Shown: in pieces, positions 19,185 through 26,003 of the stretch
Position numbering within the stretch: the first letter of the stretch is position 1
Layout: the number at the start of each line of letters is the position of its first letter
NCBI GenBank assembly: GCA_003971905.1
Contig: RSEE01000160.1
Span: forward strand, 20,171 to 84,170
Direction of reading: 5' to 3'
DNA from: Moniliella sp. 'wahieum'
Taxonomy: Eukaryota; Basidiomycota; Moniliellomycetes; Moniliellales; Moniliellaceae
DNA length: 64,000 nt
Made by a program: the position numbers and the translations under genes
The notes under the pieces: model-generated
The model's database searches: none
Told to the model about the DNA's origin: nothing
Seen by the model: the letters and a program-made list of their open reading frames with translations, nothing else

Positions 19185-21401
19185 TCAGGGGGCCAGGTCA
19201 GCCAGCATGGCATAGGGGTCGGTCTCGGTCTTAGTCTCGGTGCGAGACGCCTCGGGCTCAGGTTGGGCACGGGCCGAGGCCGAGGCAGGCGAAGCAGGTA
19301 AAGCAGCTCCGCGCGCGGGCGCGGGCGAGTCGGGGTCGGTCGATACCAACTCCATCGGGCTGCACGAGGAGTAGCTGAGACCGAGGTACGGTCTCGCCAG
19401 CTCCCACTCACGCTCCCGCTCCACTCCCGCTCCCGCTCCCACTCCCTCCACGGTTCCAGTTCCAGTTCCAGTTCCAGTTCCAGTTCCATTCGCAGCCGCG
19501 TTTCCTGTCGCCGTTGTGTGGTCGTTGAAAGCCGGGTCGCGCTCCTGCTCTCGAGCTTGGGTGGGACCTTGGAGTACAAGTGTGCGCCGGCGGACTTGCG
19601 AGCCACCTCGTCCAACGCGGGCGAGTCGGGAAGGCAGCGTGGGCGTGCGCCGCGATGAAGGTTTGAGGCGGGCGGTGGAAGATGGATCCGAGGGTGGCGG
19701 CATGGAGGGAGTTGGTCGAGCAGGGCGGGTCCATGCGGTCGGTTTCGGTGTTGATGGCTGGTTTGGGGGCTAGGACAACTTGTTTTGCCGCGCTTGGGTC
19801 GGTGGAGAGCATACGCCAGTACATGAATCCTCGGTCGCGTACGTCAGGGTTTTCCACTTGTTCCGTAGCTGCTTTGAGCAGCTTGGGTACCATTTCCGAT
19901 GCCACTGCGGGCCGTTTGAGGAAGAGCTTGACGGTGGCTGTGAGCAGGGCCAACTGAACCTCTGCCGGTTCGTCCAGGAAGCCAAACAAAAGTCCTCTAG
20001 CAACTCGTCTGCATTTTCAATCCGTTCCGCATACTCGCCCAAGATCCAGATCATGGCTGCCTTGGCCTCCATTTGGTCGAGCAAGTCGAGGTGGGCACAG
20101 AGACGTGGGATGGCGCCCTCGTATTGGTTGGGATACTTTCGGAAATGTCCTTGAGCACCACCACGGCCTCTTGTACTACGTAGCTCACACCCGTCTCGAC
20201 GAGCTGGAGCAGAGTGTGGACACAGGCATCGGCGCCTGCTGCGATCTTGATGGCCAATCGGCCAATGGACCTAACGGCCTTGCGAACAAAATCAATGTCC
20301 ACCTCGGTAGCGTACTCATGCAGTTCCACGAGCACTTGACGAATGTTGGCCTCGGTGGTGAGGCGGTAGATGATTTCGAGCTTGGCCATCTTGACGTAAA
20401 TCGGGTCATTGTATTTACAGAAAAAGATGCGCACCTCGTTGCGGAGGACGAGTGGGCGGCGTTGGATGATGAGAAGAATGTTGCGCAAGGCGACATACTG
20501 TACCTCGGGTCCGCGGTTCAGCAGGGTCATGAGCGGCGGACTCATCTTGCGCGCCAGCGCCTCCTTGACCTCGAGGCCGGGCAATGTAATTCATCAGGTA
20601 CAGCACCACCTTGGCTGCTGTCAGCACCACGGCCGAGTTGGCCGAGCTGAGCCGGACCGCGACGCGTTCCGCCAAGATTTCCGCGTCGGCCACGTCGGTA
20701 GGCACAAAACAGCATCGACTCGAGGATGTACACTTGGCCCCACTCGGACGTGTCGGGAGCGCCGAGACGAGTTTGGAGGCGACAGTGAGGTTGAGTTTGA
20801 GCTGGATGTTGTCGCTGCGCTCGGAGATCTCGGTAAGGGCGGCGACCGCATTGGCCACGACGGTTGCGTTGGAGTCGGCGAGCAGATCGCGCAGGCGCGC
20901 AATGAGGTGGTGCTTGTCGGCCAGCTTGCGGTCGGCCATGTACACCTTGGCCACGGCGACGGCGGCAGTCTTGCGCACGTAGGGGTCGGCGTCGCGGAGG
21001 GAGGTCTGGAGGGGGTCGATGAGCGCGTCGGTGATGACGGGGACCTGGATGGAGGACATGGTGCGGATGGCGAGGGCGCGGATGAGGGGGTTGCGGTCAT
21101 GGCAGTCGCTGAGGAAGGCGGGCACGGCGGAGTGGGCGAGCTCGTGGCGCGGGCGGGCGTAGTTGATGAGGTAGAGGTAGACCATCTTCTTGATGTCGAG
21201 CACCTGGATGTTCATGCAGGCGACGACGGCGGCAAAGAGGGAGCTCATGTCGTTGCCCATGGTCATGTTGGCGACGATCTTCTTGAGCGCGGCCTTGCGG
21301 CGCGCCCAGGCCTTGTCCTTCTTGTCGTCGGTGAGCTCGGCCTTGAGGTCGGCGGCGCGCTCGCGGACGAAGAACTTGGCGTCGCGCGCGGACTCGGCCA
21401 T
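19185..21401 (-). CDS. AP complex beta-adaptin large subunit (AP-1/AP-2 beta)
   Basis: Large beta subunit of a clathrin adaptor at the trans-Golgi or plasma membrane. From ATG 21401 the trunk is clear: [155 protein letters not shown] and [17 protein letters not shown]. It ends in a low-complexity hinge (a GT repeat from TTCCAG units at 19452-19492) and [11 protein letters not shown]. No C-terminal appendage is seen. About 739 aa matches short fungal Apl2-type proteins, which favours AP-1. Frame breaks lie near 20755, 20708, 20585, 20130, 19990 and 19620. Confidence 0.88.
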
Positions 21402-21607
21402 GGGGGTGGGGGTATTGTGGGGGGGGGGTGTTGTGGGGGCGGTGCGCAGGCGGTGGAGTCGGGGGGCGGCGGGCGGAACGAGCAGGGCGGAACGGGGCGG
21501 CGGGGCGGGCGGGTTTCTGTTTGTCGGCGGCGGGAAGAAGAAACGAAAAGGGCGCTTCATTCTCTCGGCCTCCTCCGCCTCCTCCCGTCCCCGCCGCTTC
21601 GTCCACG
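21402..21607. promoter_or_regulatory. Shared 206-bp divergent promoter (beta-adaptin / aconitase)
   Basis: The two start codons (21401 minus, 21608 plus) are separated by 206 bp of G-rich and then C-rich sequence. Both promoters must fit in this space. No TATA box is visible. Confidence 0.55.
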
Positions 21608-24149
21608 ATGGCTGGAGCTGTGCTGCGTGCTGCCGCCGGCCGCATCCGCCGCCCGCCCGCCGCCCCGCCACGCGCGCCCTCGCCACCGCCGCCCCCCCGC
21701 CGCCTCTCCCGCCGCCGCCCCGCCCCCCTACCCCGCCCTGCTCGCCAGCTCGAGCGCGTCCGCGCCATCCTCGGCCGGCCCTCACCCTGTCCGAGAAGAT
21801 CCTCTATGCGCATGTCCGCGACCCCCGTCGCCGCCTTCGAGGGCGCCGGCCCCGACCCCCGCGCCGTCCGCGGCTCCCGCTACCTCCAGCTCATCATCGA
21901 CCGCCTCGCCATGCAGGGTGCGTTCTCTCCCTCCCTCCTTCCCCGATCTGACTCCCCTCCTCCGCTCCTTGCCCGTACGACTCCCCCCCGCCCGCGCGCA
22001 GACGCCTCGGCCCAGATGGCCCTGCTCCAGTTCATGACGTGCGGCCTGGAGCGCGTCGCGATCCCCTCGTCGGTGCACTGCGACCACCTGATCCAGGCCT
22101 ACCAGGGCGCCGACGCTGACCTGGCTCGTGCCCAGGAGACCAACGCCGAGGTGTTTGCCTTTCTGCGCTCGGCCTGCGCCAAGTACGGCATCGAATTCTG
22201 GCCGCCCGGATCGGGCATCATCCACCAGATTGTCCTTGAGAACTATGCTGCGCCCGGCATGCTCATGCTCGGCACCGACAGCCACACGCCAACGCCTCGG
22301 GTCTCGGCGGCTTGGCCATCGGCGTTGGTGGTGCAGATGCAGTGGACGCCATGACGAATACCCCCTGGGAACTCATGGCGCCCAAGGTACTCAATGTGCA
22401 CCTGACGGGCGAGCTGAGCCCGTGGTGCTCGCCCAAGGACGTCATTCTCACCCTGGCCGGCCTACTTACCGTGCGCGGCGGCACGGGCAAAATCCTCGAG
22501 TACACGGGGCCTGGGCTACTGAACATGCCCGCTACAGGTCTGGCAACCATGTCCAACATGGGTGCCGAGGTGGGCGCCACGACATCGGCGTTCCCCTACT
22601 CGGCCAAGATGGGCGAGTACCTGCGCGCGACCGGCCGCGAGCACGTGGCCAGCCAAGCGGAGCAAGCTGCTGCCCAGGGCTACCTTTCCGCCGACCAAGA
22701 TGCGCAGTACGACGACGAGGTGCACATTGACCTGTCGAAGCTCGAGCCGACGCTCAACGGTCCTTTCACCCCGGACCTGTCCACTCCGCTCTCGCAATTT
22801 GTCGCGCGCGCCAAGGAGGACAGCCGGCCTCACCCGGTCGAGCTGACCGCCGCCCAGATTGGTTCGTGCACCAACAGCTCGTATGCTGATCTGGCGCGGT
22901 GCGCGTCGCTTGCGCGTCAGGCTACCGCGGCGGGCCTCAAGGCCAAGGTACCATTTGATGTGACTCCGGGCTCGAGCGTGTGCGCGCGACAATTGAGCGC
23001 GATGGTATCGAGGGGGACTTGACCGCGGCCGGTGCGCGTGTGCTGGCCAATGCATGTGGACCCTGCATTGGCCAGTGGAAGCGTACGGACCACCAGGGCG
23101 AGCAGAACGTGATCCTCACCTCGTTCAACCGTAACTTCAAAGGTCGTAACGACGGTAACGTCCAGACATGGAACATGCTTACTTCGCCCGAACTTGTTAC
23201 CGCCATGGCGTTTGCCGGACGGGTGGATTTCAATCCGATGACCGACTCGCTTCCCACCCCGAGGGGAAGCAGTTCCGCTTCGCCCCGCCCGAGGGGGACG
23301 TGCTGCCGACCAAGGGTACGACCTGGGTGACCAATCTCTGACTCCGGCTACCAACCCGGCGCCTCAGCCCGAAGTGGCGATTGCCATCTCGCCCGAATCG
23401 GAACGGCTCGAGGTACTGCAACCGTTCTCGTCGCCGTTTAAGAATGGGCAGTGGGAGTTACCGCCCATGCGTACTTTGCTGCGCATCCGCGGCAAGTGCA
23501 CCACCGACCACATTTCCGCTGCCGGGCCTTGGCTCAAGTACAAGGGCCACCTGTCGAACTTGGCGGAGAACACGCTGATTGGCGCGTCGAACGACCAGAC
23601 GGGCAACGTCAACTCGGCGGTGGACTACCTGACGGGCGAGGAGGCGACTATTCCGACAATTGCCAAGCGGTACCGCGACCGTGGCCAGGCATGGGTCTTG
23701 GTTGCGGACCACAACTACGGTGAAGGTTCAGCGCGGGAACACGCTGCGCTCCAACCGCGTTTCTTTGGGTGCAACCTGGTTGTGGCTCGGTCGATTGCTC
23801 GGATTGCAGAGACGAACCTGCGCAAGCAAGGTGTTCTCCACGCTCCTCTTTGCCAACGAGGACGATTACCTGAAGATTGGGCAGGGGGATCTGGTCGAGA
23901 CGGTCAACCTCAAGGACCTGATTGACCCGGTGAAGGGTTTGCTCGATACCCAGGTGCGACTCAAGGTGACCAAGTTTACGCCCTCGGGCGAGGTGAAGGA
24001 AACGCTAGAGATTCCTACCAAGCACTCGCTCTCTGCCACCCACCTTGCCTGGATCCGTGCCGGTTCGGCGTTGAACTTGATCCGTGAGCAGGCGGAGGCC
24101 AAGAAGTCGGTTCCGCCTGCTGGTGCGGTGCCCGCGGGGCGCGCGGGCG
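21608..24149 (+). CDS. Aconitate hydratase, mitochondrial
   Basis: TCA-cycle enzyme with a 4Fe-4S cluster, interconverting citrate and isocitrate; some fungal paralogues act in lysine synthesis. ATG 21608 starts an Arg/Ala-rich targeting sequence, then [15 protein letters not shown]. Core motifs are [72 protein letters not shown] (first cluster Cys) and [15 protein letters not shown] (other two Cys). The swivel domain has [20 protein letters not shown] and [20 protein letters not shown]. Intron 21918-22001. Frame breaks near 21780, 22290, 22985, 23265 and 23835 are each mended by one or two bases. The reading frame runs past the normal end ([11 protein letters not shown]) with no stop before the mL40 start at 24150, so the two may be one polypeptide. 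Confidence 0.93.
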
Positions 24150-24844
24150 ATGAGCACGTTTGCGCGTGCGATGGGTACGCGCGGCCTGCACACCACTTCG
24201 GCCGCGTACGCGTTCCGACACAAACGCGAGACGCGGGTCAGTTCGCTGAACCCTTCTGACCCACGGTACGTGGCGCCCGGACGGATTCGCGGACGCAGAG
24301 CATTGTCGACCTTACCTTCCCGCTTGTGCCGAAGGAGAAGAACAACATTGCGCATGACCCGTATGCCAAGCGCTTGGCCGTCGCCGAGGAGAAGCTGCCC
24401 TATGGTCCCGAAGTGCACGTGACGATCGTGCGTGCCTACCTGCTCCACCAGAGCGTTGAGCGGGAGAAGCTGCAGGCGGACCTGCTGACCAAGTACCATG
24501 CTATGAAAGCGGCGTGCGATGACCTCAAGGCGTCCTTCCCGCTCTTGCACCAGGCTGCCGAGCAACGTACCCGGCCGAACAACCGCTCGCCCGAAGGTGG
24601 CCCGGTTGAAGCGGTACGGTCTGACGCCCGGTGCCCAGCTCATTCCCGAGTCGGAATGGACCGAGGAGACCAAGGCCAACGCCCACCGTCTGCGTCCGAT
24701 CTGGTCGTCCCCCTCGGCACGAGTCAAGGTGGTGCAGCAGGGCGGCCGCCGTCTGTCGGTCTCTTCCCGCGCGAATGGCGCCTGCCCACCAAGACGCCTC
24801 GCCGCGAAGGCTGGCCGTCCTTCTCGGAGCCGGACCAGTTTTGA
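24150..24844 (+). CDS. Mitochondrial ribosomal protein mL40 (MRP-L28 family), possibly fused to aconitase
   Basis: Large-subunit mitoribosomal protein. The candidate start MSTFARAMGTRGLHTTSAAY at 24150 looks like a mitochondrial presequence ending in the usual LHTTSAA. The family core follows: TIVRAYLLHQSVEREKLQAD, then KYHAMKAACDDLKASFPLLH, and the end LFPREWRLPTKTPRREGWPS, matching the conserved (L/F)PxExRxPTxTPxxxGW tail of mL40. Frame breaks lie near 24285, 24560 and 24760. About 232 aa. There is no intergenic space after aconitase: both the aconitase frame and the mL40 frame are open across 24084-24150, and an in-frame fusion needs only one indel. Identification as mL40 is from motif memory and is moderately certain. 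Confidence 0.62.
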
Positions 24845-25264: not shown

Positions 25265-26003
25265 ATGAGCCGCAGTGCCTCGTTATCGCACGCGTTCGAC
25301 ACGGGCATCCACCTCGCGGCGCAAGTGCAGCTCGAAACGCCCGGGCTGAACGGGCAGGGACTGACGGGGCACTGTGTGCCGTGCACCGCTGGAGCGCCCG
25401 CGCTCGGCACCGAGGAGACCAGCACGTTGTTCCGTGAGCTCAACCATCTCAGTGCGGGGCTGGGCTACGGCACACAGCCGCCGCCCAAGACCAAGAGTGG
25501 GAAACTGTCCACGCGTCCGCGGACCGAGGCTGCATGGCGGATCCTGCACCGCGCCCAGGCCCAGGCGGACCCTACGGCAGCCTACTTTGACCCGCTTGCC
25601 CTGGCTACCGAGGGGGATGGCGCGACGTTCCCCTGCTCAGCAAACAGTATTACTTTAAGAACTACGTGGCGACCATTGCGTTTACCAATGCTCTCGCCGT
25701 CCTGGCCGAGGAGAATGGTCACCATCCGCAGCTCGTGGTCGAGTGGGGCCATGTGGGCGTGGCGTGGTGGACGCATGCGGTGGGCGGGGTACGTGACATT
25801 CCGGTGTTGCTGGGATTCGCCCAGAGGGTGTGAGAGAGTGAGAGAAGGCGGGGGGAGGGGAGGGGAGGCAAATGGAACAGAGGACTGAGTTTTACTGACC
25901 CTCTCTATCTAACCTCGATCTGGCGTAGCTGCATAAAAACGATTTCATCATGGCGGCCAAGACGGACCAACTGGGTCAACATGTGGAGGGCATTCGGCTT
26001 TGA
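25265..26003 (+). CDS. Pterin-4a-carbinolamine dehydratase (PCD/DCoH family)
   Basis: Dehydrates 4a-hydroxytetrahydropterin; the family also includes small dimerisation cofactors. The N-terminal signature VPCTAGAPALGTEETSTLFR is followed by the PCD fold YYFKNYVATIAFTNALAVLA, EENGHHPQLVVEWGHVGVAW and WTHAVGG, containing the [E/D]xxxHHP motif. After a 140-nt intron (25789-25928, GTACGT..TAG) the last helix reads LHKNDFIMAAKTDQL. A frame break lies near 25620. About 199 aa from ATG 25265. An upstream in-frame ATG at 25190 would add a basic MLGRVGRVATRSAVQLASVS leader resembling a mitochondrial presequence, so the true start is open. Confidence 0.8.

Follow-up and report, generated by a model that had tools for sequence, protein, structure and literature searches.

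The window, which is the whole analyzed stretch of 64,000 nucleotides, contains a gene that joins an Aco2-type (fungal group 2) aconitase to mL40 (MRP-L28), a protein of the large subunit of the mitoribosome. Judged from the protein sequences of its relatives, which settle this point, the aconitase-mL40 fusion is real, is not peculiar to this genome and is common to three classes of Ustilaginomycotina. We consider it likely that the locus gives rise to one precursor, which is imported into mitochondria and cut by MPP into the aconitase and mL40. The following features were assigned to the gene.

21608..21917, + strand: exon 1, coding for the presequence and the N-terminal end of the Aco2-type aconitase, broken by indels and read in three frames
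21918..22001, + strand: probable intron of 84 nt, GT...AG, assigned from the sequence and from the N-termini of the proteins P0001 and P0002
22002..24088, + strand: aconitase body with several frame breaks (PF00330 and PF00694 in relatives)
24089..24203, + strand: linker with a presequence-like stretch (MSTFARAMGTRGLHTTSA from 24150); in the window there is one frame change inside
24180..24203, + strand: putative processing site RGLHTTSA, at the position of R-x-[FYIL]-[SA]-[ST] in most fused relatives but not fitting this pattern
24204..24844, + strand: mL40 (MRP-L28) domain including the stop, assigned by profile comparison, frame broken by indels

Exon 1 opens with MAGAVLRAA at 21608 and, by sequence, ends ahead of the GT-AG intron. 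The preliminary description had placed the start of mL40 directly behind the normal end of the aconitase. On re-reading of the sequence both positions held: the aconitase ends at about 24050-24088 according to sequence and frame reading, and mL40 starts with the ATG at 24150 (protein start MSTFARAMGTRGLHTTSA) in the frame next to that of the aconitase. The absence of an in-frame stop between the two was borne out by the frame reading, which showed the aconitase frame open past its normal end until the TGA at 24257-24259. The mL40 matter reaches the stop ending at 24844 via further frame breaks, and the aconitase half is itself interrupted by several frame shifts. In the window the two parts are not joined by one continuous frame, and single-base indels occur in the junction stretch. 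In the third frame a TGA (24151-24153) overlaps the ATG at 24150 (ATGA). A single indel would, as stated earlier, join the two frames. An indel of the opposite sign would lead to a stop-start overlap, and the window alone cannot choose between the two.

A second copy of the locus was found on contig C109 of the same assembly (G000; 69.5 Mb, 223 contigs). It is 95% identical to the window and broken at different places, and its GT and AG stand at the same places as those of the window's probable intron. One alignment of 5,210 columns contained 100 indel events, 20 in which the window was without bases and 80 in which the C109 copy was; 40 of the 100 sit, by count, in homopolymers. We infer that the indels in both copies are assembly noise. 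The base count of the linker differs between the two copies, so neither is trustworthy alone at this place. As assembled, the C109 copy shows no single-frame read-through and runs into a TGA. Substitutions between the copies were distributed over the first, second and third codon positions as 4/2/19 in the aconitase and 2/3/7 in mL40, the latter 12 being too few to show selection. A pseudogene is unlikely because the substitutions in the aconitase alleles fall mostly on third positions.

The relatives were collected with a query made from the open pieces of the window joined by X. The 7998 candidates sharing most words with it were scored and the best 120 were taken. Among these, 56 continue past the end of the aconitase, and 55 of the 56 match an mL40 profile with a weakest E value of 6.9e-51, the profile having been made from 14 of the 55. 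The remaining one, P0002 (766 aa), crosses the junction and stops soon after, without a match to the profile. A single open frame for two mitochondrial proteins thus spans both parts in 55 of the 56 fused proteins, while the window is frame-broken. None of the other 64 proteins of the best 120 (P0057-P0120; query coverage 74-76%) matches the mL40 profile. Both the nearest relative, P0001 (85% identity), and P0002 read through the junction without a frame change, at the same site as in the window. The open frame of P0002 begins within the probable intron and that of P0001 just after it; with such N-termini both look like unspliced genomic ORFs. The fusion is more than a chance arrangement: both closest relatives keep the frame across the junction, and 55 of the best 120 matches contain both domains.

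The preliminary description had proposed a search for two-domain aconitase/MRP-L28 proteins in related basidiomycetes. All named proteins among the 55 found in the best 120 belong to Ustilaginomycotina. The fused genera are Tilletiaria, Pseudozyma, Ustilago, Testicularia, Kalmanozyma, Violaceomyces, Moesziomyces, Thecaphora, Malassezia, Acaromyces, Tilletia, Jaminaea, Parajaminaea, Exobasidium, Ceraceosorus and Sympodiomycopsis. Seven of them were checked in the taxonomy and all seven were assigned to Ustilaginomycotina (Ustilaginomycetes, Exobasidiomycetes and Malasseziomycetes); we take the remaining named genera to belong there as well. Moniliellomycetes and Peribolosporomycetes, according to the taxonomy further classes of this subphylum, did not occur among the named matches in the best 120. 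The named proteins among the 64 unfused ones are presumably from Agaricomycotina.

A quick tree was calculated from 57 fused rows including the window, 11 of the 64 unfused proteins and the aconitase L002 from the same genome. A single branch (SH-aLRT 99) separated all fused rows from the remaining sequences, and the window grouped with P0001 and P0002. L002 stood on a very long and suspect branch, and the tree was therefore rebuilt without it. In this second quick tree, containing 56 fused rows and all 64 unfused rows, the two groups were again separated by a single branch (SH-aLRT 100).

The identity of the C-terminal part was established by profile comparison. The C-terminal pieces of 14 fused proteins all matched PF09812 at E ≤ 0.01 (14/14). 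With whole fused proteins, six of eight did so and none of the eight was over the curated cut-off; a precomputed PF09812 annotation exists for 12 of the 56. The window itself scored 18.2 bits at 24260-24841, under the cut-off of 28.4. A profile built from the 14 C-terminal pieces matched mL40 in solved structures (6ywe, 3.5e-9; 5mrc, 2e-7), which we take to be the proteins of N. crassa and yeast, respectively. The PDB matches to mL40 presumably come from fungi outside Ustilaginomycotina or from animals. Most of the fused proteins are named simply aconitase in databases, so that mL40 could look lost in Ustilaginomycotina when it is present.

No other convincing mL40 was found in the assembly with three queries, in searches that ignore introns. 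The mL40 piece of the window matched only the window and C109, and PF09812 matched only the window, under its cut-off. A separate mL40 from Naganishia (P0142) matched the window and C109 and, weakly, contigs C108 and C52 (E 0.65). The C108 match (24.6 bits, 2 stops) was judged a chance hit because of the stops and because four other queries gave it no support. Separate mL40 proteins were also sought in the protein database, where at least 22 short matches were obtained among 7995 scored candidates. P0121 and P0122 were ruled out, as the aconitase end is still present in them. P0124 and P0125 have the same tail as the Moesziomyces fusion and appear to be aberrant models, and P0123 and P0126-P0130 are short, unassigned fragments. 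The proteins P0131-P0142 appear to be separate mL40s; an organism name is attached to three of them, namely Russula, Coniophora and Naganishia. When long proteins containing mL40 were sought, 20 of 1323 candidates matched, and all 20 belong to the fusions described above; as no more than 20 of the 55 known fusions were recovered in this way, the search carries little weight for other lineages.

The iron-sulphur and catalytic motifs of the aconitase half are kept to differing degrees. The cysteine motif CGPC and NYGEGSARE are present in 56 of the 56 fused proteins, GSCTNS in 55 and the exact TTDHIS in 39. FNRNFxGR was found in 41, with Ala or Ser in place of Gly in the other 15. Eleven fused proteins, all in one subclade (P0021, P0023, P0031, P0032, P0037, P0042, P0046, P0047, P0048, P0051 and P0053), carry TTDAIS for TTDHIS and WLR for the following WLK, which by alignment is a change in the neighborhood of the active site within this subclade.

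In the alignment a Lys occupies the position of Arg580 of the pig chain in the window, in all 56 fused proteins and in all six unfused proteins aligned. This position apparently corresponds to R604 of Aco1p. Three further copies in the same genome, L002 (C119), L005 (C59) and L006 (C20), have Arg at the substrate position and likely represent the canonical enzyme of the citric acid cycle, perhaps present more than once. Three more sequences, L001, L003 and L004 on contigs C19, C13 and C14, respectively, are presumably isopropylmalate dehydratase-like. More than two haplotypes, or mixed material, may be represented in the assembly. Aco2p of S. cerevisiae is described as having Lys where Aco1p has Arg604; this exchange is reported to matter for activity with aconitate versus homoaconitate, and Aspergillus AcoB, which has this Lys too, to have been inactive (PMC3556520). 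The fused enzyme thus resembles these fungal group 2 aconitases in having Lys where citric acid cycle aconitases have Arg; it differs from them in its mL40 part, none being described in the available portion of that article (PMC3556520).

According to our proposal, the single gene would be transcribed into one mRNA and translated into one chain, whose N-terminal presequence would drive import into mitochondria. MPP would cut inside the disordered linker and Icp55 or Oct1 would trim the new end. Estimated by length, the predicted enzyme measures about 85 kDa and the ribosomal protein, which would supply the ribosome with mL40, about 20-25 kDa. A precursor cut after import would give a band near 85 kDa despite the fusion, and an immunoblot meant to separate 85 from 110 kDa, as suggested earlier, could therefore mislead.

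The linkers of the 56 fused proteins comprise 35-87 residues as cut here and are poorly alike. The motif R-x-[FYIL]-[SA]-[ST], derived from Arabidopsis, is described there as the Icp55 motif after MPP cleavage and as close to the yeast and mammalian one (PMC8847149). It was found in 52 of the 56 linkers, where shuffling predicts 2.3, related rows not being independent. Among linkers less than 50% alike it was present in 15 of 17. As controls, 18 of 683 aconitase-body stretches of equal length and two of 56 mL40 bodies contained it. An earlier and looser pattern had matched all 56 linkers (3.9 expected); as it had been widened after inspection of the data, we relied on the published pattern. 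The published motif is absent from the window (RGLHTTSA) and its two nearest relatives, P0001 (RGMHTTSA) and P0002 (RGLQTPSA), as well as from P0016 and P0052. Sites of the RGLHTTSA type could, as we assume, be cut at R-x and then trimmed by Oct1 (R-10 type site). With the looser pattern, a motif was also recognized in 33 of 49 N-terminal presequences judged complete, seven of the 56 rows having been left out as incomplete.

In 14 fused proteins (P0003, P0017, P0018, P0022, P0024-P0028, P0035, P0036, P0038, P0039 and P0045) the looser pattern occurs two or three times per linker, as though several presequences followed one another or a spacer peptide were excised.

The linker may well descend from the former presequence of mL40, though this origin is a guess, because none of the 12 separate mL40s shows the motif (looser pattern) within its first 60 residues. 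Close to the start of the Naganishia protein P0142 stands RRAYAIAS, which is similar to the linker motif without fitting the pattern. An AlphaFold model of P0004 (mean pLDDT 77, pTM 0.68) placed the linker between a mostly confident aconitase and a moderately confident helical mL40. pLDDT was below 50 at residues 831-870, with the motif at 852, so that the linker is predicted to be disordered.

Two proteins could also arise by internal initiation or from alternative transcripts; in the window's lineage, mL40 would then begin at 24150. The ATG at 24150 begins the presequence-like part, and the window, P0001 and P0002 all retain a Met there; this is also the lineage without the published cleavage motif. 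Against this stands that the reading frame of the linker is open in 56 of the 56 fused proteins and that 32 of the 56 linkers have no Met ahead of the site, which rules out internal initiation as a general mechanism. We regard this explanation as unlikely. Alternatively, the protein might stay uncut and its mL40 tail tether the aconitase to the mitoribosome. The one open frame of the relatives would agree with this. Human mL40 is a protein of the central protuberance (PMC11452305), and that a tether would be tolerated at this site is a guess. The linkers, however, vary in sequence and length, yet 52 of the 56 keep a cleavage-type motif, which makes a permanent tether quite improbable.

Two adjacent genes on a bicistronic mRNA with an ATGA stop-start overlap would fit the third-frame TGA over the ATG at 24150, into which the C109 copy reads as assembled. 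But both copies are rich in indels, the frame stays open at this position in P0001 and P0002, and no such stop occurs in the other fused homologues either. Owing to these in-frame junctions the overlap, which we consider very improbable, and plain adjacency were rejected. An artefact of gene models or assembly, as the many frame breaks in the window might suggest, is practically negligible given the same fusion on one branch in many named species and in metagenome-derived proteins.

The cleaved precursor that we favor has known counterparts. MPP cutting of a tandem precursor has been described for Arg5,6 (Friedl et al. 2020, via PMC8847149), and Atp25 and Rsm22-Cox11 are listed as MPP-cut tandem proteins by prediction (via PMC8847149). 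As proposed for aconitase-mL40, one precursor with an internal MPP-type site yields two mitochondrial proteins. The partners are different, and the cleavage is demonstrated for Arg5,6 and predicted for aconitase-mL40. S. pombe Aco2 is an aconitase-bL21 fusion (Jung et al. 2015, via PMC11431987, PMC8148214). Like the window gene it joins an aconitase to a protein of the large mitoribosomal subunit in one gene, but its partner is bL21 instead of mL40. The bL21-type matches in the assembly lie on contigs C8 and C12. Consequently, the window carries a second fusion of this type, distinct from that of S. pombe Aco2. No description of an aconitase-mL40 fusion was found in the open-licence literature searched, mostly available as titles and the beginnings of abstracts.

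The fusion provides a second example of an aconitase linked with a protein of the mitoribosome, here an unrelated one, and has been kept across three fungal classes. It becomes testable whether such joins are accidents rendered harmless by MPP or couple metabolism to mitochondrial translation. Tentatively, and with considerable doubt, aconitases might have acquired different proteins of the large mitoribosomal subunit on two independent occasions, bL21 in fission yeast and mL40 in Ustilaginomycotina, because synthesis in a one-to-one ratio or a fraction of chains left uncut couples the supply of mitoribosomes to (homo)aconitase and iron-sulphur status.

The neighboring genes were also inspected. 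A protein with an adaptin N-terminal domain (PF01602, 9.7e-47) is encoded on the - strand at 20415-21401 of the window, divergently from the aconitase gene. The apparent starts of the two genes are 206 bp apart, and the stretch between them (21402-21607) is a possible shared promoter region. Downstream of mL40, a piece of a pterin-4a-carbinolamine dehydratase (PF01329, 2.1e-17) was found on the + strand at 25591-25830.
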